From: Neelides folsomi
Taxonomy: Eukaryota; Arthropoda; Collembola; Neelipleona; Neelidae
Assembly (NCBI GenBank): GCA_034687125.1
Contig: JAQGBZ010000122.1
Location: 1-64,000, forward strand
Direction: 5' to 3'
Length of the DNA: 64,000 nt
Shown: piece after piece, positions 3,601-37,100 of the stretch
Layout: each line of letters starts with the position of its first letter
How positions within the stretch are numbered: position 1 is the first letter of the stretch
Program-made: the position numbers and the translations under genes
Notes under the pieces: generated by a model
Databases searched by the model: none
Seen by the model: only the letters and a program-made list of their open reading frames with translations
What the model was told of the DNA's origin: nothing

Positions 3601-3731
3601 ATAGATATTAAACCCTATTTACTTTTATATACTTTTATAATATTACTTTTATAAAAGCCCTTTGTCCAAATTATTCAAATCCTCTCACCTTTAACTCCCA
3701 GAGTGACAAAGAAGAAAAGAAGAATTCTCAT
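697..3731 (-). CDS. Modular serine protease (LDLa-LDLa-Thr linker-sushi-like-S1)
   Basis: Eleven exons in consistent phase (3731-3689, 3557-3377, 3146-3036, 2967-2696, 2566-2476, 2302-2187, 1930-1772, 1683-1484, 1416-1336, 1226-1073, 917-697) encode 542 residues. Order: hydrophobic signal peptide (1-14); two LDL-receptor class A repeats (about 25-65 and 74-110, six Cys each with acidic Ca-binding ends); a Thr/Pro/Ser-rich, mucin-like linker (about 113-190); a Cys-rich sushi-like segment (about 195-267); and a trypsin-fold domain. The catalytic triad is visible: His327 in LTAAHC, Asp383 in SSDIAII and Ser478 in GDSGG. The residue at the specificity position six before the Ser is Ser, as in chymotrypsin, not the Asp of trypsin. 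The layout matches arthropod modular serine proteases (ModSP/HP14), secreted zymogens that start the Toll/melanization cascade. The usual R-IVGG activation site is not evident; the domain begins near LAFITG. The family role is established knowledge; orthology is inferred. Confidence 0.88.
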
Positions 3732-5609
3732 AATTCAATTTCTACTCAAAATCGTCATTTGTATGACCACAAATTATGATTTTATTTTAATAATAAAAGA
3801 ATAATGAAACCACTACAGGGATGAAGGTGAAAAGGGAATGATGAAAATTTCACAATTCATTTTTCCGTTCAGTTCATTAAATATTTTCCCATCATGCAGA
3901 TTGGGGTTTGGGGTTAGATGAGTAATTAAATAGTGAGAAAATGGTAGTTGAATACCTGGAACGCAGACGTAGCTCAATGTAATTCCTCTTAAGTCTTTTC
4001 TTTCTCATTCCACTTACGTAGATTGTAAATACTCCCAACATGTTATCGAGAAGAGCAAAAGAGATAAAGGAGTGTTTTAATTAGGAACCGACGTAAAAAG
4101 ACGTCCGTGTATTTCAGATTGGGAAAATGAGTCTTCTGGTCAAGGCAGGTTTTTCTCATGAATGAATTTTCAAGAACCTTGATATTCCACTTGTATGATG
4201 AACCTCCAATTAATTTCCTCAACTCGTTTCCTTTTCCAACCCCAAGCACCTCTTGGTTGCTGTTGGCAAATATTGGAGGGAATGGCCAATTCTTTATTTT
4301 CTTTTCACTCCAACTTGCAAAAAATATAACAAAGAAACCAAGCCCTTAGACTCAAATTCCTCACCGGCTACTTTTATTTCTCACGCATCTTTGACTCCTT
4401 TGTGATTCTCCCACCCTCAGACATTGCAAATTTGCTTTGTTTACTTTTACTCCTTGAATGCTTTATAATAAATGTAAGCGAAAAATTAGCGTTTAGCGAA
4501 AATGCCCATGTGAGATCTTTCAATATTAATATAAATGTATGCCAATACTCAAATAAAGTGCTTTAAGAACATCAATCATAATTCGAAAGTAGAAATTGTT
4601 TTATTGAACAATGCAAGTATAAAATCTCCGTAACTCAACTCAAGATTTTTAATTTTAAAAACTTTGACTATTTTTTGTAAACCGCGTATCATTTGAAATT
4701 CGACGATCCATTTAATATTTAGAATTCAAATTACATTCATTGCTTGTAATGAAAATTTGCAATGCTAACGTAACATTTTCGTATTAAAATATCGAATATC
4801 ACATCGAATTCAAATGTGAAGAATTTGGTATAGATTTATTTCTACAACTACTGATACAACTACCGAATTTCGACTCCGTTCAAAAAGCGTATATTTTCCA
4901 TTTTTCTCGATTAATGCTCATGGAAGTTGACCTTGGAAATCAATAATTTATACGTGCAAAATAAATTATTTGAATCAAAAAGTCAAATTCCAATCAACGC
5001 ATTGGAAAAAGGTTGGTAAAAAACATCATGTCGAACAACATGCCAATATGTTATAATATTTGTTATTATAATGCAGTTGCAGTTTAAAAAAATATTAATA
5101 GTAGATATATAGTACAATTGGTACTTATAAGCTATATGTATGTAGTGAACGTAGATACATGAACATAATTGAATTAAAATATAAAATATTTAAGTACACC
5201 AACATCCCTCTTAAGCTATTTGTCCATTTCCGGCACATCGTTTAAAATTCGTAGAAAACTACGAAATTATTCGAAACATTACTTAAAATGTGTGTTAAAC
5301 CTCTTTCGTGGACCGTTAGTTATATTGAACTATTAAACGGGTCCCTCCGTAATGAAGTCGTAAACGATGGAATAACTAAAACATGCAAACATAATCAAAA
5401 CAAAGGTGGACTTCATTGCGGAGCCAAAATCGTGTGGGAAATGTATCCACATATACAGATCTCATATACATACTACTTGTTAAAAAAATCTTATAAAATT
5501 ATATTAAAGCATGGCAAGAATCATGGTGAGAGTGTGTGAATGTAATTATAAAAGTAATTTACAGAAGTTCATAAACTTTCGCGAGCACACCACCCGCGTG
5601 AGGTTAAGA
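3732..5609. other. Intergenic stretch, no supported gene
   Basis: The 5' side of the protease and the 3' side of Myb. Small open frames occur at 4043-4249 (minus), 4158-4349 and 5288-5539 (plus), but none shows a domain, a convincing splice partner or a recognisable family. The protease promoter should lie just above 3731, but no TATA box or initiator stands out from the AT-rich background. Confidence 0.5.
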
Positions 5610-14305: not shown

Positions 14306-15879
14306 ATGTTCGGACGACGGATTTTTTCTACTGTTTTGAGAGACGTGGGGAAGAAAGGAGCAAGCGGGATTCCCCTTCCCAAACAAAAATCGCCACAACC
14401 CGCCAAAACAAAACCAATTACTTCAGAAGTCAATAAGACTCACAAAATAGTTCCTCAGCCTACTTATAAAGAAATACGTCTTCGGTGTGGCTCGTGTGAA
14501 AAGTTACTCAAAACGCCTGACCTTCAACCTTTAGATGACAAGTCAATTACTACATTTTCATCCTTGAGATCAGCCGTTTTCTCGGAGTTGAATCAACATG
14601 AGGAGGTAAAATTTATATTATTTATATGGTATTTATGAAATCCATTAAATTATTACAACTATTTAAAAATTAGAAGGTTAAATGCCGAAGCGACGATTTT
14701 TATTAATAATTTGCATAATTTGATTATTTTTAAATCTTTAGGTAGCGGGTATCAAATGGAAGCGATTTCCAGCCTTAAATAAAATACTCAAAGGTCATCG
14801 TTTAGGAGAGTTGACGATTTTCACTGGGCCGACCGGGTCCGGAAAAACAACATTTATGAGCGAATATTCTTTGGATTTGAGTATGCAAGGAGTGAGAAAA
14901 CATTTTTTATTTAAATTCATTTTAATTTTTGATATTTGGACTAAATGTATTTTTGAATAGGTAAATACTTTATGGGGGAGTTTTGAAATTCGTAACGTCA
15001 GACTCGCCAAAACAATGTTGATCCAATTCGCCGAAAAGAACTTGGAAAATCATCTTGATGAATATCAAAAGTGGGCAGATGAATTTGAGAAACTTCCACT
15101 TTACTTTATGACCTTCCACGGCCAACAAAGCGTAAAACATGTATTAGAAGTAAGAAATTATTTGCCATTACCTAACTTATTAATTTTTATTGGATTTAAA
15201 TATACTTATTTTTTAATTTAGTTATATACATTATATCATATATTTTACAATTCATTGAACTAACAAAAAATATAATTTAACAGGCAATGAGTTATTCCGT
15301 GTTGATGTTTGACATTAAACACGTGGTCGTGGACAATTTGCAGTTTATGTTAGGAGTTTCTGAAGAGTCCGGATCTCATATGGACAGATTTTGGAAACAA
15401 GATTTGATAGTAGCTTCATTTAGGAAATTTGCGACCATTAATAACTGTCACGTTAGTTTGGTCATGCACCCAAGAAAAGTAATTTTAAAAAAAATTAAAT
15501 CAAAGCTGTATTAAATTATCTAAATAGTATTAAATTAAATATATTACATTAAGTAGCGTTTTATTTATATCATATTTTAAAATTCCAGGAGCAAGCTGAG
15601 AATGACTTAACAAATAGTTCAATATTTGGTGGGGCGAAAGCCTCTCAAGAGGCTGACAATATTATGATCCTTCAAGACAAAAGACTGACTAGTCCTCGTG
15701 GACGAAAATATCTCCAAGTTACCAAGAATCGCTTCAGTGGGGATTTGGGGATTTTCCCTCTTGAGTTCAATCGAGACGCCCTTTCCTTCGCTTACAGACC
15801 CAAAAAATCCACAACAGGGAAAGAACCAACAGCGAAAGAACCAACGGCGATAGAACCAACGGCAGAAGAAGGAAAATAA
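14306..15879 (+). CDS. Mitochondrial DNA helicase Twinkle, lacking the primase-like domain
   Basis: Five exons, all phase 0 (14306-14605, 14742-14891, 14961-15149, 15284-15478, 15589-15879), encode 374 residues. Residues 1 to about 25 are Arg/Lys-rich with no acidic residue until Asp13, like a mitochondrial targeting sequence. A short linker (about 60-100) matches the Twinkle interdomain linker. The RecA/DnaB-like core follows: Walker A GPTGSGKT (129-136), Walker B HVVVD (Asp230), FHGQQS, HPRK and KNRFSGD. This is the hexameric replicative helicase of mtDNA (family knowledge). Twinkle is usually about 600-700 residues, with a zinc-binding/TOPRIM-like half before the linker; here the transit-peptide-like start leads almost directly into the linker. 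The C-terminus carries three EPTA-type repeats. An upstream alternative first exon cannot be excluded. Confidence 0.9.
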
Positions 15880-18402: not shown

Positions 18403-21400
18403 ATGATGACAGAAGGTGAGAGTTCGCTGGACTCTGGGGTGGGGCCGGTGTCATCAGTGAGTTCAGTGACCCCGTCGTTTGCTGACATTGCCACCGTCAT
18501 TAGCTACCTCCGGAGGGTCGGCTGGGCCAATTTGGAAGAAGACGACTCTTCGCCTTCGACACCTAATGCGCTTTTGAACGCTCTCAACGATGCGACAGAA
18601 ATTCTAAACCGATTTATCACAGACCCTCAGCTCACTTCAATATTCCTTCACAAAATTTCGAACAGAGGTTGGATTTTATTAATTTAATAATTTATAATCT
18701 ACATTTTTAAACGATCATTAAAATAATTTTCAATATTTGGATAATAATTTTAGATGAAGAGAGGGAAGATGAATATGCCGTGACGACTGATGTCAAGTTT
18801 GTCGGGGTCAGTGCAGCTGGAGTGATTTTTGTCAAGAGGGGAATGGTGCTTGAGAGCAATAAGGGACTCAATTCTCAATTAAGGGCCATTATCTTGAACG
18901 ATGGGTCGCCGTATGAAACGCTCCATGCATATTTCTCAATGGGAGTTGCCCCTTTTTTCAAATCGTATCTCCAAGCCACGGGTCGATCCGCTGATACTGG
19001 TGGAGACAAATTGGCCTCGGCCGTTGAGAAGAAGATGACCGAGGTTGAAATGGGTTTATTACACCTTCAGCAGAATATCGACATCCCAGAGATTTCCCTT
19101 ACTATCCATCCACAAGTGGCCCAATTTGTAATGCAAGGAAAGAAACCGAAAGACTCGGATTTTGGGGATAAAATCAACGATTCTTCATTTCTCAATTCAC
19201 TTCATCAAGGGGTCAACCGTTGGGTGAAGGAAATGCAAAAAGTGACCAAATTGGAACGAGATCCTGCGAATGGCACAACGCTGCAAGAAGTCAGCTTTTG
19301 GCTCAACCTTGAAAGAGCTTTATTGAACCTCCAAGAGAAAAGAGCTTCCATTGAGGTTGAAATGACTCTGGAGATTTTGCGTCTTGGGAAGCGATTTCAT
19401 GCCACGACGTCTTTCGACACGGACACGAGGCTTCAACAAGCTCTGGCCACCGTCAATGACTACAGTCCTTTAATGAAAGACTTTCCTATTCAAGATCTAT
19501 TGGCGGCTACTGATCTTGAAAAGGTTTAATATTTTTTGGAATATGGTTGAAATTTATAATTAATTTATTTCTTATACAGAATCCCTTTTAATACGTTAAA
19601 TATTAAAAATAACAAACAAATATAATAAATTATTTATAATTTTTAATAGAAATTAATATTTATAGTTTTTAGTTACAATAATTTTATAATTCTAGGTTCG
19701 TTTCTCACTTCAAGGGATTTTTATCCATTTGAGAAAAATTCGTAATACGAAATATCCGATCCAAAGATCGCTTCGCCTTGTTGAGGCAATTTCTCGCGAT
19801 CTTTCGGCCCAACTATTGAAAGTTTTGGGTTCGCGACGACTGATGGTCGTTCCTTATGATGAGTTCGAACGGGTCATGGGCTCCTCCTTTGACATCTTCA
19901 ATACATGGGATGAGGAATACGAAAAGCTCCAAGCGCTCCTTCGTGACATCATGAAGAAAAAGCGCGACGAAATGAAGATGATTTGGCGAGTCAATCCCTC
20001 ACATAAAAAACTTCAATTGCGAATGGAACAAGTAAGGAAATTCAGAAAACAACACGAACAATTGAGGTCGGTCATCGAACGCGTTCTCCGCCCAGATCAA
20101 CAAACAATGGTCCAAGGAAATGCCAATGAGGAAGTTTGTGCAGCATATTTGCTTGTTGAAGATGTGGAGGTATTTTTATACTTAATTTAATTTATTTTAA
20201 CAATCTAACATTAATTTTTATAATTTATTTTAACAATCTAACATTGATTTTTATTATTTATATTAACAATTTACAATGTTAACCCAAGAAATAAATTAAT
20301 GATAATAATGAATTAATATGAATATTGCTTATTTAGTAATTTGTTAAATTTCTAGGTTCTTGAAATGTCTAAAGAAGGACAGGAATCGTGGGAAGACGCT
20401 GTTCGACGCTACAACGAGCGAGTGGACAATGTTGAAGCGCGAATCACTGCAGCTCTTCGTGAACAACTCGCAACTGCAAAGTCTGCTAATGAAATGTTCA
20501 GGATCTTTGCCAGGTTTAACGCTCTGTTTGTTCGTTCACAAATCCGCGGAGCGATTCGGGAATATCAAACACAATTGATCCAAAGGGTCAAAGATGACAT
20601 TGAGACTTTGCATGAGAAGTTCAAGACACAATACGCCCTGAGCAAAGCATATCGAATGAGCGAACTCCGCGATATCCCGCCCGTGTCCGGATCAATTATT
20701 TGGGCAAAGCAAATTGATCGTCAATTGTCAACATATTTGAGACGAGTTGAAGCAATTTTGGGATCGGGATGGGAGAACCACGTGGATGGGCAGCGTCTCA
20801 AAAGTGATGGAGATTCCTTCAGACTCAAACTCAACACTCAGCCAATATTTGAAGAATGGGTCTCGAAAGTTCAAGCGAAGGATGCAACGGTGAGTGGTAG
20901 GATTTTCGACATTGAAACTACAAGAAGTCGATTGCCAGGAGGAAAATCAATTTTGAAATTGAAAGTCAATTTCCTTCCTGAAATCATCACATTGTCGAAG
21001 GAAGTTCGACATTTGAAGAATTTAGGATTTCGAGTTCCGCTGGCAATTATGAATAAAGCACATCAAGCGAATCAAATGTATCCATTTGCTATTTCCCTCA
21101 TTGAAAGCGTCCGAACTTATGAGAGGTCTTGGGAAAAGATTGAGGAAAAAGCGAATGTGACTTTGCTTGTGGCTGGAATTCGCCACGAAGTTCATTTAAT
21201 GATTTCTGAAGGAATGGGCTTAGTGTGGGAATCATACAAATTAGACCCATATGTCAAGAAGCTCTCAGAGGCTGTTTTCCAATTTGCAGAAAAAGTTGAT
21301 GAAGTTTTGTCAGTTGAAATCCAAGTGAGTGTGGACATTAAAAGCCTAGAGACTTGTGCATATAGTGCCAAGACATTTGGAGATATTTTAGCCAAAATCC

Positions 21401-24400
21401 AAAAGGCTGTGGATGATCTTTCATTAAAACAATATTCAAATTTGGCCAAATGGGTTGCACATATTGATGCTGAAGTAGAGAAACGATTGGCTCATAGACT
21501 TGAAGCTGGAATTTCATCTTGGACTTCTTGTCTTGAAGGGCGAGTGGAAACAGAAGACAACGACACTGACACAGATGCTCCTAAAAATCCCCACACATTG
21601 GGCGGAGATCCGGCTATGGGAGAATTGAAATTGGAAATGAGAATGACTCAACAAACCCTATGGGTGTTCCCTGCAGTTGAAGATGTTCGCCAACAATTGT
21701 TCCAAAAATTGGTTTCATGGGAGGCTATTGCCACTTCACATCCTAGGATCCAAAGTTCACGGTATCAAGTTGGACTTGACCGAGGGAGCGCTTCAACTTA
21801 TAAAGATCTTTTGGCCAAGTTGCCGACTGGCTCCGGGTGTCTTGAAAAAGCATATGAAGCCATTGAAGTGAAGATGAGAGAAGTTATCAGCTATGTTGAG
21901 GAATGGCTTTGTTATCAATCCTTATGGGATCTCCAGCCGGATATTCTTTATGGGAAGTTGGGGGAAGATATCACTTTATGGCTCAAATGTCTCACTGACA
22001 TCAAGAAGACTCGAAGGACATTTGACACGGCAGAGGTGAAGAGGTCAATTGGGCCAATTACCATTGAGTACGGGAAAGTTCAATCAAAAGTGTCTTTGAA
22101 ATACGATTCTTGGCACAAAGACGCTTTGGCCAAATTTGCCAATTTGCTCTCTTCGCAAATGACAAGTTTCCATTCGGAAGTGGCACGGTCAAGGACTGAC
22201 CTAGAGCAACAATCAATTGAGACGAGTTCAACTTCTGAAGCTGTTGGTCTCATCACTTATGTCCAAACCCTCAAGCGGAAGATGATGGAATGGGAGGAAC
22301 GAGTTGGAGTTTTTAAAGAAGGTCAACGAATCCTCGAACGTCAACGTTTCCAACTTCCAAATACTTGGCTTCATATTGATTCAGTAGAAGGGGAATGGTC
22401 TTCATTTTCCGATATTTTGAAACGAAAGGACTCGTCAATTCAAACCCAAGTTGCAAGTTTACAAGCGAAAATTATGAGCGAGGACAAAGCTGTTGAAGGC
22501 CGAACTTTAAATTTCCTCATGGAATGGGAAAAGGAAAAACCAGTCAGAGCTGACCTTCGACCTTCGGAAGCCCTTCGTCAACTTTTACTCTTTGAAACTC
22601 GATATGCTAAGTTGAAGGAGGAACGCGGGAATGTGTCAAGAGCCAAAGAAGCATTGGAAATTCAAGGTCTTGGCTCGGAATCAGGCGATCGATTTTCTGT
22701 AGCTTTGGAAGAAATGCAGGACCTTCGTGGAGTTTGGGCTGAACTTGGACGCATTTGGGACCAAATTGATGAAATGAAGGAAAAACCTTGGCTTTCAGTT
22801 CAACCAAGAAAAATCCGATCTCAGATTGATGGGCTTTTGGCTCAACTCAAAGAACTCCCAGTCAAATTGAGACAATATTCCTCATACGCCCATGTGAAGG
22901 GGCTTTTACAAGGATTTGCCCGAGTCAATTCCCTTATAATTGAGTTGAAGTCGGAGGCATTGAAGGAACGTCATTGGAAAGCGCTGATGAGGTCACTGGG
23001 AGTTAATTGGAATTTAGGGGATTTGACCCTTGGACAAGTCTGGGAAGTTGATTTAGGGAGGAATGAGAAAGCTGTGAGGGATGTGATCATCGTCGCACAA
23101 GGAGAAATGGCATTGGAAGAATTTTTGAAACAAGTGAGAGAAAGCTGGCAGGGATATGTTTTGGAACTTGTGGCTTATCAAGGGAAATGCAAATTGATCA
23201 AAGGATGGGACGATTTGTTTAATAAACTTAAAGAACACATTAATTCCGTCGGAGCTATGAAGCTCTCGCCTTATTACAAAGTATTCGAAGAAGATGCAAC
23301 TGCATGGGAAGAAAAACTTAATCGAATCTTGGCACTTTTTGATGTTTGGATTGACGTACAAAGAAGATGGGTTTATCTCGAAGGAATCTTCTTATCTTCT
23401 CAAGATATTAAAGCTCTTCTGCCAATGGAAACTTCAAGGTTTCATTCAATTTCTACAGAGTTCCTAGGACTTATGAAGCGTGTGAGCAAAAGTCCAAAAA
23501 TCCTTGATGTTCTCAATATCCAAGGAGTTCAGAGGTCACTTGAAAGATTGGCCGACCTTTTAGGAAAGATTCAAAAGGCTCTTGGAGAATATTTGGAAAG
23601 GGAGCGATCATCCTTTCCTCGATTTTACTTTGTTGGAGATGAAGATTTGTTGGAGATCATTGGAAACAGTAAAAACATTGCTCGATTGCAGAAACATTTT
23701 AAAAAGATGTTTGCCGGAGTGTCGGCAGTTGTCCTGGGGAATGAAGAAACAATTACTGGAATTTCCTCAAGAGAAGGCGAAGTTGTTCCTTTTCTCAGCC
23801 CTGTAGTTGTAAAAGACCAAAAGGTCAATGAATGGTTGAGTTCTGTAGAGAAGGAAATGAGATTTTCATTGGCGACTTATTTGACCCAAGCTGTGACCCA
23901 AGTGGCTCAATTTAATGAGAAGATCGACGAAGGGAATTTTATGAGTTGGGTTGATCGATTTCCGGCTCAGCTTATTGTTCTGGCCGCTCAGATCTGGTGG
24001 TGTGAAGGAGTTGAGAATTCACTGGGAGTCAAAGGCAAATTGGAAATTGTTCTTAAAAGGGTTGAAAACACACTGAATGTTTTGGCAGACTCCGTTTTGC
24101 ACGAACAGCCCGCACTGAGAAGAAAGAAATTGGAACATTTAATCAATGAGTTTGTACACAAACGGACCATGACACGTCATTTGGTCAATTGTGGTGTGAA
24201 TCAATCAAAGGCATTTGAATGGCTCAGACAAATGAGATTTTACTTTGACCCGAACCAACCTGACGTTCTCAAGAAGCTGAGTATCGTCATGGCAGATGCA
24301 AAGTTCAATTATGGATTTGAATATTTAGGAGTTCAAGAACGTCTGGTTCAAACTCCACTTACAGACAAATGTTATTTGACAATGACTCAGGCTTTAGAAG

Positions 24401-27400
24401 CTCGTCTTGGAGGATCCCCATTTGGACCGGCTGGGACAGGAAAAACGGAGAGTGTGAAAGCTCTTGGACATCAACTTGGACGCTTCGTCCTTGTCTTCAA
24501 CTGCGATGAAACTTTTGATTTTCAAGCCATGGGAAGAATTTTTGTTGGACTTTGCCAAGTTGGTGCTTGGGGTTGTTTTGATGAATTTAACAGATTGGAA
24601 GAACGGATGCTTTCGGCTGTTTCCCAACAAATTCAAACTATCCAAGAAGCTTTGAAATCTCAGAAGGAAGCAAATAAAGAAGGAGTTTTGAATGTGGAAC
24701 TTGTAGGGAAATCTGTGAAAGTGAGCAGCGAAATGGCAATTTTTGTCACAATGAATCCTGGCTATGCTGGACGAAGTAATCTACCTGACAATTTGAAACA
24801 ATTGTTCCGATCATTGGCAATGACCACACCGGATCGTCAACTCATTGCAGAAGTCATGCTCTTTTCACAAGGTTTCCGAACTGCTGAGACTCTTGCAGCC
24901 AAAGTCGTTCCATTTTTCCGATTATGTCAACAACAACTTTCAGCCCAATCCCATTATGATTTTGGCCTTCGTGCTCTTAAGTCTGTTTTGGTCTCGGCTG
25001 GAAATGTGAAGAGAGAACGAATCCAAACCATTAAGGAAGATGCGACAAGACGCGGAGAAACTGTTGAAGAATCAAAAATTGCGGAAAACCTTCCTGAACA
25101 AGAAATTTTGATCCAATCCATTTGTGAAACGATGGTGCCCAAATTGGTGGCAGAAGATATCCCGCTCCTCTTTTCACTCTTGTCAGATGTGTTCCCGGGA
25201 GTTTCTTACACACCGGCCCAGATGGAAGCGTTGAAAGATCACATTAGGGCCATTTGTGGAGAGGAATATCTCGTTTGTGGGGAAAATGCATGGATGGAGA
25301 AAGTAAGACATTTTAATTCTTTTTTTATATTTATCGAATATTTTTCATTCATTGATTATAAATGTAATTTTAACTTTATTTCTTTATTTAAATTGAACTT
25401 TTAAATTTTATTGGTTATTATTATTTTTTATTTATAATTATTCATTAATGAATTAAATATTTTTTCAATATTTATACAAAATCTGTTTTATTGATATAAT
25501 CGGTATTATTTGTGGATATTAAAATTTAAATCAAATATCTAAATTAATTAAATATTTTTCGTGCTGCAAAGGGAATGTATGGAAAATCTTGGTTAGAAAA
25601 GGCAAGAAACACACAAATTGAATGCCACCGAAAGTAATTTTCAAAATGAGATTCTTCCATTCGGATTCAATGAATTCATAATGCCAATACAAATATTGAA
25701 ATTGGACAATATGACTCTCATAAGATTCTTATTTAAAGTCTCAATTATACTGAATATTCCTTATAAATACATTAGAATATTCATTAGAATTGTGGCGTGA
25801 AAATTTCTTTTTGTGGGAAATTGTACTAAGTAACTTGATTATTAATTGAATTTGTTTATTTCCAGGTTCTTCAATTATATCAAATTCAAGCGATCAGTCA
25901 TGGCGTGATGCTCGTGGGGAATTCAGGGTCAGGAAAATCAAGTGCTTGGCGAGTTTTGCTCAAAGCTCTTCAGCGACTTGAAGGAATTGAAGGAGTTTGT
26001 CATGTCATTGATCCTAAGGCCCTTTCCAAAGAAGCCCTTTATGGTTTTATGGACCAAAATACTCGTGAATGGACAGATGGACTTTTCACTCACATCCTTA
26101 GGAAAATCATTGACAATGTGAGGGGCGAAGGAGGAAAACGTCAATGGATTGTTTTTGATGGAGATGTTGACCCAGAATGGGTAGAAAATTTAAATTCCGT
26201 CCTGGACGACAACAAACTTTTAACACTTCCTAATGGAGAACGTCTCGCTCTGCCTTCCAACATTCGACTTTTATTCGAAGTTCAAGATTTGAAACATGCG
26301 ACAATGGCGACAGTCTCACGTTGTGGGATGGTTTGGTTCTCTCATGATGTCTTATCTTCTGACATGCTTTTCCACAATTTCTTAAGTCGATTGTCCAACA
26401 TTTCCTTGGAGGAAAACGAAGAAGCTGACTTTGTTCTTCCCTCATTATCAACAAGAGAAAATGAGAAAGAAACAACGGGGACTTCGATTGCTCTTCGTCT
26501 CCAAAGAGAAATTGCTACTTTGTTGGGACCTTTCTTCGCTTCTGATGGTCTCGTTGAAAAAGCATTGGAATTTACTTCTAAACAAGAACACGTTATGGAT
26601 TTCACCCGAATGAGAGCTTTTTCATCACTATTTTGTATGTTGAACGAGGCTGTGAGACAAGTCCACGCATACAATTCATCTCATGCGGATTTCCCTCTTG
26701 AGCCAGAAGTTGTTGAGAGATTTATGACCAAATCTTTGATTTATTCTTTATTGTGGTCCTTTGCGGGAGATGCGAAATTGAAAGCAAGACACGAATTGGG
26801 TGAATATATTCGAAGCATTACGACAATCCCCCTTCCGCCTCACAATGCCTCAGTTCCAATTGTTGACTATGAAGTAACAATGCAAGGGGAATGGTCTGCA
26901 TGGGCCGTCAAAGTCCCAAGAACTGAAGTAGAAACTCACAAAGTTGCAAGTCCTGATGCTGTCGTTCCGACACTTGATACTGTTAGACATGAATCACTAT
27001 TGGCAACTTGGCTTGCTGAACACAAACCATTGGTCCTTTGTGGCCCGCCGGGATCAGGAAAAACAATGACACTTCTTTCAGCTTTAAGAGCTCTGCCGGA
27101 TATGGAAGTCGTCGGATTGAACTTTTCATCTGCTACAACTCCTGAACTCCTCTTGAAGACATTTGACCATTATTGTGAATATAAGAAAACTCCCAATGGC
27201 ATTGTTTTGTCTCCGATCCAATTGGGCAAATGGCTGATCCTTTTTTGTGATGAAATCAATTTACCTGATATGGACAAATATGGAACTCAGAGGGTCATTT
27301 CTTTCTTGAGACAATTGGTTGAACAGAAATGTTTCTTTAGGAATTCTGATCATGCCATTGTGAGACTTGAACGCATTCAGTTTGTTGGGGCTTGTAATCC

Positions 27401-30400
27401 TCCAACTGACCCTGGACGAAAGCCTTTGTCACATCGATTCCTTCGTCATGTTCCTGTAGTTTATGTGGATTATCCAGGAGAAACATCATTGAAACAAATC
27501 TATGGAACTTTCAATCGAGCCATGTTGAAGCTCGTTCCTTCTCTCGTCACTTATGCCGATCCATTGACCGAAGCCATGGTTGAATTCTTCTTAAAATCCC
27601 AAGAAAAATTTACTCAGGATATGCAGCCTCATTATGTGTATTCTCCGCGTGAGATGACTCGATGGGTTCGGGGGATTTATGAAGCCATTCGTCCCCTTGA
27701 CACTTTGGATGTTGAAGGATTGGTCCGCCTTTGGGCCCATGAAGCTCTACGTCTTTTCCAAGATCGTCTCGTTTATGAAGAAGAACGGGCCTGGACGAAT
27801 GAAAATATTGATGATGTTGCCATAAGACATTTCCCGACCATCACCAGGGATGTTGCGCTCCAGCGACCCATTCTTTATTCCAATTGGTTATCGAAGGATT
27901 ATATGCCAGTGGAACGAGACGAACTTCGCCATTACGTCAAAGCCCGACTTCAAGTATTTTACCAAGAAGAACTCGACGTGCCTTTGGTTCTTTTTGACCA
28001 AGTGCTTGAACATGTTTTGCGAATGGATCGAATTTTCCGACAACCTCAGGGTCATTTGCTCCTCATTGGAGTGGCCGGGTCAGGGAAGACGACGCTTTCA
28101 AGATTCGTAGCTTGGATCAATGGACTCCAAGTATTCCAAATTAAAGTTCATAATAAATACACGGCCATGGAATTTGATGAAGATTTACGGTCTGTATTGA
28201 GGAGAGCTGGATGTAAAGGAGAAAAGATTTGTTTCATCTTGGATGAAAGCAACGTGTTGCAATCGTCATTCCTGGAGAGGATGAATACATTGTTGGCTAA
28301 TGGAGAAGTTCCAGGGTTGTTTGAAGGGGATGAATATACAACGTTGATGACCCAATGCAAGGAAGGAGCAGCAAGAGAGGGTTTAATGCATGATTCCTCT
28401 GAAGAACTCTACAAATGGTTTGCAGGCCAAGTGATGAGGAATCTTCATGTTGTATTCACAATGAATCCTTCAGAAAAAGGACTTAAAGATCGAGCCGCCA
28501 CTTCGCCTGCTTTATTCAATCGATGTGTCTTGGATTGGTTTGGCGATTGGCCCAACACGGCCCTTTTCCAAGTTGCTAAAGAACTCACAATTAAGGTTGA
28601 CCTCGACAATTCAAATTGGAAATTACCACTGGAATTCCCAATGGCTTTTGATGAGCTGAATCCGAGTATTTTGACTCATCGGGACGCGGTGGTGAATGCT
28701 TTTGTTTTTGTTCACTTGACACTTCATAAAGCAAATGCAAGATTGGCGAAACGCGGTGGGAGGACGATGGCAATCACTCCAAGACATTTCCTCGACTTCA
28801 TCTCCCACTTTGTGAAGTTGTACAATGAGAAGAGCAGCGACTTGGAGGAACAACAACTTCATCTCAATATTGGTTTATCCAAAATCCAAGAGACGGTGGA
28901 ACAAGTGGAGGAAATGAAAAAATCACTCGAACTCAAATCTCAAGAACTCAACATGAAGAACGAATTGGCCAACAACAAATTGCAGGAAATGATTAGGAGA
29001 CAGCAAGAGGCCGAACAGGTTAGAAATCTAAATTCAATTCTTATTTTTAGATATTTGATTTAATATACATACATATTGATAAATGTTTAAAATAATAGTT
29101 ATGATTAGATTTGGTTTTAATAAAATTTATTTGTAAATAGAGAAAAGTTCAAAGCCAAGGAATTCAAGAATCTCTCAAAGTTCAGACAATGGCAATTTCC
29201 AAGAAACGTGAAGACGTGACAAAGGATTTGGAACAAGTCGAACCTGCGGTGCGCGAAGCTGAACAAGCCGTCCAGTCTATCAAGAAACCTCAATTAGTTG
29301 AAGTTCGCTCAATGGCGAATCCTCCAGCCGGTGTCAAATTGGCTCTCGAGTCAATTTGTGTTCTTCTTGGGGAAAATGCCTCAGATTGGAAAGCCATCAA
29401 ATCTGTGTTAATGAAGGAGAATTTCATTTCCACCATTGTCAATTTTGAAACGGAGAGCATCAGTGAGGAAGTTCGAGAGAAAATGTATTCAAAATATCTC
29501 TCCAATCCGGATTATAATTTCGAGAAGGTCAATCGAGCATCTTTGGCTTGTGGACCATTGGTGAAATGGGCCATTGCTCAATGTAATTTTGCCGATATGC
29601 TAAAGCGTGTGGAGCCTTTACGCGAAGAACTCCGAAGTTTGGAAAAGGCCGCTGAGAAGAACCAAGGAGAAGGACGTGAAATCATGGAGGACATTTCAAG
29701 ATTAGAGAAACAGATCACAGGCTACAAGGAGGAATACGCTTTACTCATCGCCCAAGCTCAGGCCATCAAATCGGACTTGGAGATGGTGCAAAGCAAAGTT
29801 GAGCGGAGCATGGCGTTGCTAAAATCTCTTGGAATGGAACGAGGGCGATGGGAAGGATCCTCAGAAGCTTTCAAAGGTCAAATGGCCACAATCATCGGAG
29901 ATGTTCTTCTCTCTGCTGGATTCTTATCTTATGCTGGATACTTCGATCAACAGTGAGTCACATTTTACCCTTAAATATACACAAACATATTAATTATTCT
30001 TATATGCATAATAGGTATTAACTTTATTTTAAAATAATCTTAATTTCCCCTCAGATATCGACAGAATCTTTTCTCAACATGGTGTGAACATTTGGGGCAA
30101 GCCGGGATTCCATATCGACTTGATTTGGCCCTCTCGGAGTATTTAAGTCATCCAGATGAGAGATTGAGATGGAAAGACAATTCACTTCCGGATGATGATC
30201 TCTGTACTGAAAATGCAATCATGCTCAAGGTGATTTTTATATGATTGGAATATTTAAAACTATGGTAATTACCTAATTAGAATAGGTCTGATTATTGATC
30301 TTTATTTTTTAGAGGTTCAATCGGTATCCGTTAATCATTGACCCTTCGGGCCAAGCTACGGATTTCCTTATGAGAGAATATGCTGACCGGAAATTGACCA

Positions 30401-33400
30401 AAACTTCTTTTCTCGACGACTCTTTCCGAAAGAATCTCGAATCAGCTCTTCGTTTCGGAAATCCACTTCTCGTCCAAGATGTTGAATCATACGATCCTAT
30501 ATTGAACCCAGTGTTGAATCGAGAAGTTCGTCGTACTGGAGGTCGAGTTCTCATTTCTTTAGGTGAACAAGACATTGACCTTTCACCTTCGTTTGTGATC
30601 TTCCTCTCAACCCGAGATCCAACTGTCGAATTTCCGCCTGATGTTTGTTCTCGTGTGACTTTTGTCAACTTTACCGTCACACGTGCTTCGCTTCAATCTC
30701 AATGTCTCAATCAAGTCCTCAGAGCTGAACGACCCGACATTGACCAAAAGCGATCAGACCTTTTGAAACTCCAAGGAGAATTCCAAGTTCGACTTCGTCA
30801 CCTTGAAAAATCTTTGTTGGGAGCATTGAATGAATCAAAAGGGAAAATCCTTGATAATGATTCCGTCATTACTACACTTGAGAATTTGAAGACCGAAGCA
30901 GCAGAAATTTCAAGGAAGGTTGAAGAAACTGACAAAGTGATTGGAGAGATTGACAGTGTTAGTGGCCAATATTTGCCATTGGCCCAAGCATGCAGTTCTA
31001 TTTACTTCACACTCGATTCACTCCATCAAATGCATTTCTTGTATCAATATTCCCTTCACTTCTTCCTTGATATGTTCAATTCTGTACTGAATGGAAATCC
31101 AAAATTGCAAGGGCTGAAAGATCCAACGGCTCGACTTGAATTAATCACCAAAGACCTATTTCAAGTAAGTTAAGACAAATGCGAGGGAAAGTTTTAATTT
31201 TCTAAATTTTGATTTTACCAAATTAACTAAACTGAATTGTTCATTTCTTTAAAATTATTAAATTGTTTTTTAATTTGGAATTTAATGGAATTATTTTTAT
31301 TCCAGGTTTGTTCTGAACGAGTTTCTCGTGGAATGCTTCACGTTGATCGACTTCCTTTTGCAATTTTACTTGCCAGAATTTTCTCAAAGAACGTTTTCGA
31401 ACCCGCGTTCCAACTCTTTCTAAGATTCAAAGAAGGAGTTCTTCCTCCTTACAAGGTTTTTTTCTATATTTATTTGAGCTAATTAAACTAAAGATAAATT
31501 TTTTTTCTTAAATTATAATGATCATTATATACAATATGTACATTAGTATTCTGATGGATAAATTCTTTTTTTAAAATTTCAGGGTGGACATCCGAATTTC
31601 TTATCAACGGAGCAAGTTGAAGGCATGTTGAGACTTGCCTCTAAAATTCCTGCATTTAAGAATCTTGCATCCAAAGTGAACAGTCAAGAATTCTTAGCTT
31701 GGATTAAACATCCAACTGCTGAAACGAACGTTCCAGCTCTTTGGGACGAAATCGGGAGTGGTGACCTTATCACAACAGTGTATAAACTCCTACTAATCCA
31801 AGGCTTCCGTCCAGACCGAGTTGTAGCAATGAGCACTCTTTTAGCCGATGAGATTCTCGGATCAGAATTCCTCCCATCTGGGGACGTTGACCTGGCAAAG
31901 GTCGTAGAAGAAGAAGTTACAGCTCGAACCCCCGTCCTTCTTTGTGCCGCTCCTGGGTTTGATGCTTCTGGTCGTGTGGACGATTTAGCAGCCCAGAAAA
32001 GTCAACCACTTGTATCAATTGCTATTGGTTCAGCTGAAGGATTCACCCAAGCGGATTCAGCAATTGCTGCTGCTGTCAAAACTGGTCGATGGGTTTTGCT
32101 CAAAAATGTTCATTTGGCCCCTCAATGGTTGCTCCAATTAGAGAAGAAACTTCATTCGCTTCATCCACATCCTGGTTTTAGACTTTTCTTAACGATGGAT
32201 ATCCATCCAAAGATCCCGGTCAATTTGCTCCGTGCTGGACGAGTTTTTGTCTTTGAACCTCCGCCAGGAATTAAAGCGAATCTTCTCCGCACTTTCAACA
32301 CCGTCCCTGCGTCGAGGATGATGAAAGCTCCATCGGAACGTGCAAGACTTTATTTCCTTGTCGCATGGTTCCACGCAGTCATTCAAGAACGACTCCGCTA
32401 TGTTCCATTGGGTTGGGCAAAATATTATGAATTTAATGAGTCGGATCTTCGAGTTGCTTGTGATACATTGGACGCTTGGATTGACTCAACGGCTATGGGA
32501 CGAACAAATCTCCCGCCGGACAAGGTCCCTTGGGATGCTTTGAAAACTCTCTTTTCGGAAACAATCTACGGAGGGAAAGTTGATAATGAATTTGATGCGC
32601 GTTTGTTGTCTTCTTTTGTTCATCGGTTGTTCACACCAAGAAGCTTCGAACCCGACTTTTGTCTTGTGGCTAATGCTGATGGTGGAGATATATCAATGCC
32701 AGACGCCTTAAGACGAGATCAATTTCTTAATTTTGCCAATGCTCTTCCTCAGAGACAAACGCCGGCTTGGCTTGGCCTTCCAACACATGCTGAAAAAGTT
32801 CTTCTTACAAACAGGTTTTTACTAATTGTCTTACCACTTGTCTATTTTCATAATCAATAAGGTTTTCATTTATTTTTATTAAACTAGATTTAATCATATA
32901 ATCATATTATCTTAATATGTGGACTAAATTCTGTATTTGTAATGCAGAGGAGCCGAGATGGTGTCAAAGCTCTTGAAGATGCAACTTATTGAAGACGATG
33001 AAGATTTGCCTGCAAAAGAAGTTGGGATTGCGGTCTCATCAGGAACTCCAGCGTGGATGAGGACTTTGCTCGTATCTGCAGAAGAATGGATGAAACTTAT
33101 TCCAACTCAACTCAAAGCCCTCAAGCGAACGGCTGACAACATCAAACGCCCACTTTATAGATTCTTTGAACGTGAAGTTGCTGCAGGAGTCGCCATGCTT
33201 CAAACCGTTACTTCCGATCTTCAAACAGTCATCCTCATTTGTCAAGTAATTTTTTAATAATAATTGGGATTAAATTAAGATTAAAATTAAATTAAAAAGA
33301 TTAAAATGTGAATGAATGAATTTGAAGGGGGAACGGAAGCAGACGGCTTATCAGCGGAAGTTGATTTCCGAATTGGTTCGCGGTTTGATTCCTCGAAGTT

Positions 33401-34178
33401 GGGGAGGGAAATATCCCGTCCCTCGTGGTTGCACTGTTATCAATTGGATCAATGACTTGGCCCTACGAATCAATCAATTCATTCAAATCTCCCAAGCAGT
33501 GGCCAAAAATGGAGCTGAAACTTTGGATGTAATTTTTTTTACCAAATGTTTGCTTTACTTTTTACTATTGAATTGTTCTTTTATGTAAAATATTATTTTA
33601 TTTTAGTCAATCCCTGTGTGGCTCGGTGGGCTTTTCAACCCAGAGGCTTATTTTACTGCAACACGTCAATGTGTGGCTCAAGCAAATGGATGGTAAGAAA
33701 TGTTTATTTAAATGTATTGGATTTTAATGATAATTTTTAAATTTAGGTCAATTGAGGAGCTTGAACTTGAAGTTGTTGTCGGAGGTCATAAGGGGAATTT
33801 CCTTCTTGTTGGATTGAAACTTCAAGGAGCTGCGTGGAAAGAAGGATTGCAACTCTCAGCCGACGTTCTTTCAGATCTCCCCGAAGTGACTCTCACCTGG
33901 CTTAAGTAATTATATTTCTTTATTTTATTAATTGTTAATTTAATGATAAACTTAGTCTTAGCAAGAAATGAAATTAATAATTTACTCAATTTAATAATTG
34001 ATTTACTAGGAGCGATCCTAAAGTTAATCTGGCTGATGGGAAGATCAATCTCCCTGTATATCTCAACTCCACTCGAGACGATCTCCTCTTCACTGTTGAC
34101 ATGAAAATCCTTAAAGCCCAAGACAAATACAGCTTTTATGAACGCGGGGTGGCCATTTTAGCCTCAACTCTTTCCTAA
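18403..34178 (+). CDS. Dhc64C: Cytoplasmic dynein 1 heavy chain
   Basis: Fifteen exons (18403-18667, 18754-19523, 19696-20169, 20356-25302, 25866-29018, 29141-29952, 30055-30229, 30313-31164, 31306-31455, 31583-32814, 32948-33245, 33328-33528, 33607-33692, 33747-33905, 34010-34178) encode 4580 residues, against 4646 in human DYNC1H1. Order: N-terminal tail with dimerisation and intermediate-chain-binding regions; linker; AAA1 (Walker A GPAGTGKT near 1861, then CFDEFNR); AAA2 (GNSGSGKS near 2170); AAA3 (GPPGSGKT near 2545); AAA4 (GVAGSGKT near 2887); stalk coiled coil with the microtubule-binding domain in exon 6 ([13 protein letters not shown] near 3263); AAA5; AAA6; and a C-terminal domain ending in ERGVAIL. 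It is the minus-end-directed microtubule motor (family knowledge). The symbol is that of the fly orthologue. AAA1, AAA3 and AAA4 keep nucleotide-binding residues. Exon 4 is nearly 5 kb without an intron, and intron 4 is the longest (563 bp). An AATAAA lies near 34346. Confidence 0.97.
20186..20262. repeat. Tandem duplication in dynein intron 3
   Basis: A unit of about 39 bp containing ttatttta-acaatctaacatt occurs twice in tandem, with a third degenerate copy beginning after 20262. It is intronic and has no evident function. Confidence 0.6.
25572..25601 (+). other. Candidate alternative 30-nt microexon in dynein intron 4
   Basis: An acceptor-like ctgcaaag is followed by 30 nt in phase 0 encoding [13 protein letters not shown] donor follows (AAAAG|GCAAGA). 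The end and donor resemble those of exon 4: both contain GGAAAAT, then a Trp codon, a Glu codon and a Lys codon at the splice site. Inclusion would insert ten residues between AAA1 and AAA2 without shifting the frame. This is predicted from sequence only. Confidence 0.4.
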
Positions 34179-37100
34179 TCATTTAAAGTTAACTTGATCC
34201 CTCACTGCAAGTATTACACTTTACCTTATTTATATACATACTAAAACTACCAGTTTAATAATTTGAGTTGCGTGTAAGGAAATATTTAAACAAGTAATTA
34301 ATTTAGAATACTCTACCTTTGTCAATATATTTAAGTGAATTGAATTAAATAAATCTGAATTATTAATCAAAATTAAAAACAAAATTTTCAATTCTTGCTT
34401 TTAGTTACTAGTAGTAGTAGGCACCGGTATGCATATTAAATATAATAATATTTATTATCTTAAATCTCTTAGTTTTTGAAAAGCTTTCAAGAAAATCATA
34501 GGAGGAATTGAGTAAAGCTCACTAATTTCCGTTCAGAATTATGAATAGAAAAGTCTTTCAATGGAAGATTCTCATTTTATACGATACTTACTGTAGAAAG
34601 GAAATGAAATTTTGTGAAAATATTATTTTACTCAATGGGAAAGAAAGTTACTAGGAAGCATATTATTTATTAATTAAGAGCTAAAAGCTTGTTTTAATAG
34701 CTTTTCTAATTAGTTGGCTTTAGTGGAATTGAGTTGAAGTTTCGAACACGTTTTAACCCTTTGAGTAAATAATTAAATACATAAATATTCATTCATATAT
34801 GGCATATCTACTTTTATCACAACCAACTCGAGTGGGCGTCTTTTCGAGTAATTAGGCAAACTTGTTAAGATTTCCTCCATTTAAGTGAATAATTTAATAA
34901 ATAAACTTGGGTATTAAAATGAGCATAATTTCCAGGTAAAACTTAGTTTGAATACATACTTATATGTAAATACAAATTATTAAGTCTATAATAACAGTAG
35001 CAATATCACCAAATATTGGTCTTAGGTATTAGAGTTTAATCAAAATTCTAAACTTTACCAGCGGACTTAGGATAGTTTGCGAATTACTTTGTTGAAAAAA
35101 CAATTCTGTTCAAATAAAAGGATTGTCCATCTTATTGTTCGTAGTTTATTCTAACAGTAATTTAATTATTAAAAATGAATAAAAAGCGTTTAAAAGTTTG
35201 AGTTTAACTCTATTGGTAATCTCAAGAGAGCCGATGACGCTAAGAGTAAACCCTTGAAATGATTAAATAAATTGAATTGAATTGACATGAAAAATCGGTT
35301 GATATCGTGGAGCTCTTAACTGCTTAAATCAAATTACTTTGTACACTATACTTAATGCGATGTAAACACAATTTTCATCCTGGAAGTCTTCTTCACTTTA
35401 CAATGACAATGAGTGAATTTGAAAGAAATACATTTTATGGATATAAAACAACAATCCAATTTAGGAATCTTCACCTAATGTAACTACTGCTGATATAAGT
35501 ATACTACATATGGTACATATTATTAGTATACAGCATGTATGAATTTGGGGTTATTTAATTTTATTTAATGTATATGTGGAAAATAAAAGAAATGAAATTT
35601 TGCTAAAGTCGAATCACAATTCTTAATGGTTATCTGATTATCTTCATATTGGTTTAATATTCTCAAAACATCCTAAAATCCTAATACTCTAACGATATTC
35701 CATATACCTATGTAATTTTGTAAATAAATATATACATATATACATATTTATATCTGTGCAATATGTATCTACATACATAAATAAATAGTCTATAGTATAT
35801 AAGCATAGTATTTCTAATAGTTCATTGGGAAAATATTAATAAAAAATGAACATTATTCTCAACATAATCCATATATATACATATATACAAAATATTGTAT
35901 ATGTTCTAGTATTATGTACATATACATATCTAAAAGGAAAAGCCAATACTAAAAGTAAAATGTATATATTAAAACTGGAAAGTTCTTATTTACATAGTAG
36001 GCATATACCATATATGAATAAAGTAAATATAATATTTACTCAATTTTAATATTACGTGAAAAGTTGACCTTATTCCTGATCCCTACTTTGTACTTTTCTC
36101 CTGATACATCTCTTCCTTCCTTCCCCAAACTTGTTCTTCAATTTTCTTTGGGAAAAAATCAAAATAAGGAAAGTGAAGAATGGGAAAACTGTGAAAGTGA
36201 AAAGTGAAGGAAGTCTTTGGATATTCAAGAAGGAAAATTGACATTTTCTTCTTCAATGGAGTTGGAGAGGAAGATGAGACTTTGCAGGTGGCCGACTCAA
36301 ACAAACTTCATTGATGTCTTCTATCTCATTAATCCCTTCAACCTTCCTCTCACCTTAATAGACCCTTTATTTATCATTTCCACACTAAACTTATGTACCT
36401 TCATATTAAATATATTACATATACCTATTTACATTTGAGTATATACTACATTACCCTTAAAAAGTGTAACGTGCTTTATTGAGTGTGTTCCCAAATAGAA
36501 AATGAGAGATATTATATTAAGTACCAGATATATAACGAATATATATTATGTATATATATATCTTATATGTAGATAAGTAAGATGGATACGATATTACATA
36601 TATGTATACATATGTAAAGATTCTAAAGAAAAGCCATTACTTTTTCATGCGGAAGATTACCAGTAATATTATATGGTAAAGTAGGATATGTACGTAATAA
36701 TATTATAATATGTAGTATTAGTATGGTATGAATTGAATACAAATTTCATTTTATTAAGACTTCTTATTTGAAATTACTTAAGAAATGTAGCCTTGAAGCC
36801 TTCGAAATTCCTTGTTGAAAGAGGGACTTTCAAATAATCAACAAACTTGTCTTTTATTCACTTCAAAAGAAGGTTCAACCTACGAAAAGATGAAAAAAGC
36901 GCAAGAAATTTTAAGCCTTTTTTACCAAAAAGATCTAATCTGATTCGTTTTATGGAATAATAAAAATCATATATTTTTTAATCATATGATATATATAACA
37001 TAACAATTCATCCTAAACCTATATATTTATCAGCTAATATCAATATAAAAATACATATAAATGTATTACTTATAATTTTATAATACATAGTTTACTTATA

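Follow-up and report, generated by a model that had tools for sequence, protein, structure and literature searches.

A candidate 30-nt microexon between AAA1 and AAA2 in the cytoplasmic dynein-1 heavy chain gene of the collembolan Neelides folsomi

A single heavy chain gene serves cytoplasmic dynein-1 in its many jobs, and the diversity of the motor is generally attributed to the accessory subunits and adaptors. An alternative segment within a cytoplasmic dynein heavy chain is described for DHC1 of Schistosoma mansoni, where mutually exclusive exons of identical lengths, with strong homology and split codons, are used (PMC3228551), whereas the segment considered here is a short phase-0 cassette. 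Among the matches listed in a literature search, no open-licence title or abstract opening described an arthropod cytoplasmic dynein heavy chain with a microexon; PMC3583065 concerns dynactin, and neither "dynein" nor "dhc-1" is found in PMC7706725.

With regard to splicing signals, the neural exons that depend on the eMIC domain in Drosophila are far shorter than other exons and have long AG exclusion zones, UGC motifs near the 3' splice site and very weak 3' splice sites, along with a CUAAY branch point, a UCUC tract, a strong 5' splice site upstream of the exon and a weak one of their own (PMC8797185); the main text of that paper contains neither "Dynein" nor "Dhc64C". In humans, alternative splicing is enriched among the exons that have large AG exclusion zones, such that cassette splicing was reported for 32.5% of the exons with zones of at least 150 nt versus 19.8% overall, with the caution that some large zones have nothing to do with splicing (PMC1431707). 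GC donors are present in less than 1% of the introns in model organisms (PMC7072748).

The window, by which we mean the whole 64,000-nt stretch of DNA that was analysed (contig JAQGBZ010000122.1), contains the heavy chain gene of cytoplasmic dynein-1 in complete form (Table 1). Its best match among solved structures is human DYNC1H1 (E = 3.4e-115 for a segment of 221 aa that includes the site of interest), and the spliced frame is unbroken across the 14 introns, giving a protein of 4580 aa without the 30 nt studied here and of 4590 aa with them. Intron 4 measures 563 nt, against 54-186 nt for the 13 others, and a TACTAAG motif is located at 25824, close to the acceptor of exon 5. We searched the genome of 75.1 Mb in 840 contigs using the AAA2 segment (159 aa). 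Since this segment matched itself in full, while at least eight further places were only 38-59% identical over shorter stretches, the dynein-1 heavy chain gene appears to be single-copy; the eight further matches presumably represent axonemal dyneins and dynein-2. As expected for an animal gene, none of the pattern-matching stretches in bacterial/archaeal contigs (40) and viral contigs (10) coded for a relative.

Table 1. Locations of the features discussed in the text, given as positions in the window unless another locus is named; a slash marks the exon boundary.
Feature	Location	Strand	Remarks
Cytoplasmic dynein-1 heavy chain gene	18403..34179	+	With the microexon left out, 15 exons separated by 14 introns; inferred start codon
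Exon 4	20356..25302	+	End of AAA1; last bases GGGGAAAATGCATGGATGGAGAAA, donor AAA/GTAAGA
In-phase GT, possible alternative donor	25273..25274	+	CTC/GTTTGT; weak; precedes the exon 4 donor by exactly 30 nt
Upstream half of intron 4	25303..25571	+	269 nt, 14% GC; holds the AG exclusion zone
TGCTGC, two UGC motifs	25562..25567	+	Directly before the microexon acceptor; TGC at 25562 and 25565
Candidate 30-nt microexon	25572..25601	+	Phase 0; weak acceptor GCAAAG/, donor AAG/GCAAGA
Downstream half of intron 4	25602..25865	+	A GC-AG intron if the microexon is used; contains 9 AGs, its own acceptor among them
Exon 5	25866..29018	+	Starts VLQLYQI, AAA2 P-loop; acceptor TTTCCAG/GTTCTT
Srrm234 3' end with eMIC (SRRM_C)	L013 (G000:C54:135400-145399), about 3680-5180		Distal last exon completes the domain, proximal last exon truncates it

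The candidate microexon in intron 4 reads GGAATGTATGGAAAATCTTGGTTAGAAAAG, which corresponds to ten residues in phase 0, and is preceded by an AG at 25570-25571 and followed by GCAAGAAA. A preliminary description of this DNA had reported these 30 nt with an acceptor and a GC donor, an intron 4 by far longer than the others and a reading frame that is kept whether or not the 30 nt are included, and our re-reading agreed with it in each of these respects. No other phase-0 open cassette of the type AG..G(T/C)AAG and 9-60 nt in size is present within intron 4. When the intron was shuffled with its dinucleotides preserved, 130 of 5000 shuffles contained some such cassette and none contained one ending in W-x-E-K, as the insert does with W-L-E-K and the end of exon 4 does as well, although the test of the tail was set up after the sequence was known and should be discounted somewhat. 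A genome-wide search for further copies of the microexon, allowing for up to 3 mismatches, yielded the self-match only, and the RNA structure around the microexon gave no signal (z = -0.44).

The resemblance to the end of exon 4 had been noted before and was taken to suggest that the microexon originated by partial duplication of that exon. We found that 19 of 36 positions are alike in a gapless comparison, with W-x-E-K and GYAAGA common to the two segments. The resemblance is present but weak at the level of DNA: counting both strands of the window, 5 other distinct places aligned as well as or better than the best local alignment (score 27, donor included), and 25 other places did so when the donor was left out; the number of equally good alignments expected on one strand of intron 4 was about 0.02 with the donor and about 0.1 without. 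We consider the DNA likeness suggestive at most, part of it being donor consensus. The duplication is not established by these alignments, since equally good ones occur elsewhere and since constraint on the residues before VLQLYQI, together with the donor consensus, can explain the shared W-x-E-K and GYAAG equally well.

The most distinctive feature of intron 4 is an interval of 264 nt that is free of AG, from the AG within the exon 4 donor (25306) to that of the microexon acceptor (25570). It is the longest AG interval of the window, in which 3284 intervals were recorded on the plus strand and 3177 on the minus strand. Shuffling the bases of the stretch produced a sequence without AG in 14 of 20,000 trials (5.7 expected), and none of the 261-nt stretches with 10-18% GC was AG-free in the window (0/26) or in a sample from elsewhere (0/24). 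In a control sample of 200 kb (10 kb from each of 20 other contigs, both strands), one of the 20,085 AG intervals reached 264 nt. This one is a run of 316 nt without AG at L032:7264 on the plus strand, and inspection of the sequence downstream of it revealed no evident exon, indicating that AG-free runs also occur without an exon. At the constitutive acceptors, of which the gene has 14, the AG zones measure 19-114 nt. The acceptor of the microexon is the first AG past a zone of more than 150 nt, as in those human exons in which a large AG zone goes with a distant branch point (PMC1431707), but it differs from these in that no strong distant branch point was identified. The weaker YTAAY sites in the upstream half of the intron are located at 25313, 25370, 25445 and 25544.

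We also examined the motifs and splice-site strengths around the microexon. The two TGC motifs in front of the acceptor are the only ones in the 269-nt upstream half. A TGC within the last 14 nt was found for 1 of the 14 constitutive acceptors and for 53 of the 1096 AGs in an AT-rich context in the window. The window contains 366 AG..GYAAG pairs that are 3-60 nt apart (202 on the plus and 164 on the minus strand), and only two of these combine a TGC with an AG zone of 60 nt or more, namely the microexon and a pair at 31110, within a coding exon. In the control sample from the other contigs, for which pairs with a spacing of 3n and up to 60 nt were selected irrespective of whether the frame was open, 2 of the 507 pairs had a TGC together with an AG zone of 100 nt or more.

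Using a position weight matrix, which is rough since it was trained on 14 sites of this gene with one row misplaced by a base, the microexon acceptor scored -4.7, below all of the 14 constitutive rows (-2.1 to 14.8). The microexon donor scored 5.0 as a GC and would score 8.8 were it a GT, above the best constitutive donor (7.9), while the 13 correctly placed constitutive donors ranged from 2.4 to 7.9. The donor of exon 4 (6.2) was not clearly strong, falling in the middle of this range; of the 12 remaining donors that were placed correctly, 7 scored higher. GC donors were not found at any of the 14 constitutive sites of the gene; what the microexon has in common with GC-AG introns is a GC donor in an otherwise strong context, AAG/GCAAGA (PMC7072748).

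Compared to the eMIC-dependent neural microexons of flies, the dynein microexon is likewise very short and preserves an open frame, and it has in common with them the long AG exclusion zone, the UGC motifs near the 3' splice site (the TGCs at 25562 and 25565) and an extremely weak 3' splice site, but it differs in the absence of CUAAY and UCUC (PMC8797185). A scan for the CUAAY branch-point motif was negative in both halves of intron 4, CTAA occurring as CTAAA at 25539 and as CTAAG at 25826, and no TCTC or CTCT indicative of a UCUC-rich polypyrimidine tract was found in the upstream half.

A search of the genome with the cwf21 profile yielded two loci above the cut-off, one of which (L012) we take to resemble U2SURP/SR140. 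In the other (L011/L013), cwf21 is directly preceded by MYNGIGLTTPRGSGTNGFV, which by itself matches no Pfam family; presumably this is the arrangement of Srrm2/Srrm234. About 3 kb downstream is an RS-rich reading frame ending in RRRGSPSFLDRRRIT, followed by two possible last exons, a proximal one that gives R-SRKRRD-stop and a distal one that gives SARKRPIPYKRR...-stop. The RS-rich exon alone scored 24.4 bits against SRRM_C, below the cut-off of 27, whereas the RS-rich exon joined to the distal last exon scored 46.7 bits, the splices being predicted from the sequence and the exons joined by hand before scoring. A frame-by-frame search of the genome with PF15230 gave no match and the controls were equally silent, probably because the domain is interrupted by an intron. 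An eMIC domain is encoded in the genome, on what appears to be an alternative last exon of Srrm234, and the arrangement of the alternative last exons is similar to the one reported for holometabolous insects including flies.

For comparison, we examined the conserved hinge microexon of ELAV/Hu, whose motif is given in PMC8553928. In the same genome it was recovered as MLAINKGLQR, probably 42 nt in size (L020, G000:C97, near 62060, minus strand), and its acceptor, TTTTTAG, follows an AG-free zone of 130 nt and a CU-rich tract. Since the zone is present and no UGC was found in the last 14 nt before the acceptor, this comparison supports the AG zone only.

Taken together, the balance of evidence favours, with slightly better than even confidence, a real and regulated cassette microexon. 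The likeliest single activator would be the eMIC form of Srrm234, which would yield a neuronal long isoform. Neural eMIC control would be the best single mechanism, albeit an unproven one. Of the alternative microexon proposed in the preliminary description, the cassette itself is supported by the 264-nt AG-free zone, the two UGCs, the weak acceptor, the frame-preserving length and the eMIC domain, and its supposed origin by duplication is not established. By default, exon 4 would be spliced to exon 5. Where the activator is present, the weak acceptor, being the first AG past the exon 4 donor and endowed with two UGCs, would be used along with the GC donor, and inclusion would put ten residues between AAA1 and AAA2. 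As the insert ends in W-L-E-K, it would rebuild the segment before VLQLYQI and restore the start of AAA2 as W-x-E-K-VLQLYQI, and the connecting loop alone would become longer.

Of the alternatives, the one that survives best, although we find it unlikely, is that the 30 nt are intronic, open by luck between an AG and a GCAAG, and that one protein is made. An acceptor that scores lowest of all could simply go unused, the donor is a GC, some in-frame cassette appeared in the 130 shuffles mentioned above, the DNA likeness to exon 4 is weak and a comparable AG-free run exists elsewhere without an evident exon. Chance would, however, also have to account for a W-x-E-K tail that was not seen in any of the 5000 shuffles, for the longest AG-free zone of the window terminating precisely at the acceptor AG, for the paired UGC and for the outsized intron.

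Alternatively, the microexon could be regulated by something other than eMIC, such as a distant branch point, ELAV or PTB, or be used in the germline or in muscle and not in neurons, a reading that overlaps with eMIC control except for the regulator and to which we assign a rather low probability. Large AG zones mark regulated exons generally (PMC1431707), multiple maternally deposited isoforms of Dhc64C are reported for Drosophila pseudoobscura and D. miranda (PMC5147784), and the CUAAY and UCUC elements of the eMIC code are missing from the intron. Yet the UGC, the very weak acceptor and the long AG zone in combination match the eMIC code (PMC8797185), and an eMIC domain is encoded in the genome.

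That the microexon is constitutive and the gene has 16 exons would fit with the frame-preserving length and with a loop in human DYNC1H1 that is longer than the skipping form, but an acceptor that scores below all constitutive ones makes this improbable. Least probable of all is a swap of equal length, in which the GT at 25273 would be used along with the microexon so that ten residues replace ten, since its donor scores 0.2 versus 2.4 to 7.9 for the 13 correctly placed constitutive donors and a Val codon at this position is not improbable, despite the exact match in size (30 nt) and phase, the W-x-E-K at the end of both segments and the precedent of mutually exclusive exons in S. mansoni DHC1 (PMC3228551).

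In the protein, an alignment to DYNC1H1 places the insertion site immediately ahead of the P-loop of AAA2, where human K2206 is followed by V2207. The human loop, YLTYGDGEEVGGMWVEK, is 5 residues longer than the skipping form, and the inclusion form would in turn have a loop 5 residues longer than the human one. The loops of Dictyostelium and yeast are probably close in length to the skipping form since both matches were one residue shorter than the query stretch. The contacts between AAA1 and AAA2 frame the main ATP site of dynein, and an effect of the predicted 10-residue insert on the ATPase or on linker docking is possible.

Under the reading of a regulated cassette, a splice choice within the motor domain would provide a direct route to a cell-type-specific change of the motor. 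We only tentatively suggest a neuron-specific dynein-1 heavy chain in which an eMIC-driven microexon of ten residues, possibly as an exact swap, alters the joint between AAA1 and AAA2 and tunes the mechanics of the ATPase or linker. The combination of an AG zone with UGC motifs also suggests a way to nominate unannotated microexons from genome sequence alone.

Other observations on the window and the genome concern unrelated genes. The reading frames at positions 15000-15876 of the window resemble what we take to be the mitochondrial DNA helicase Twinkle. At least three matches to PF02949, presumably the insect-specific odorant-receptor family, were observed in the 75-Mb genome.
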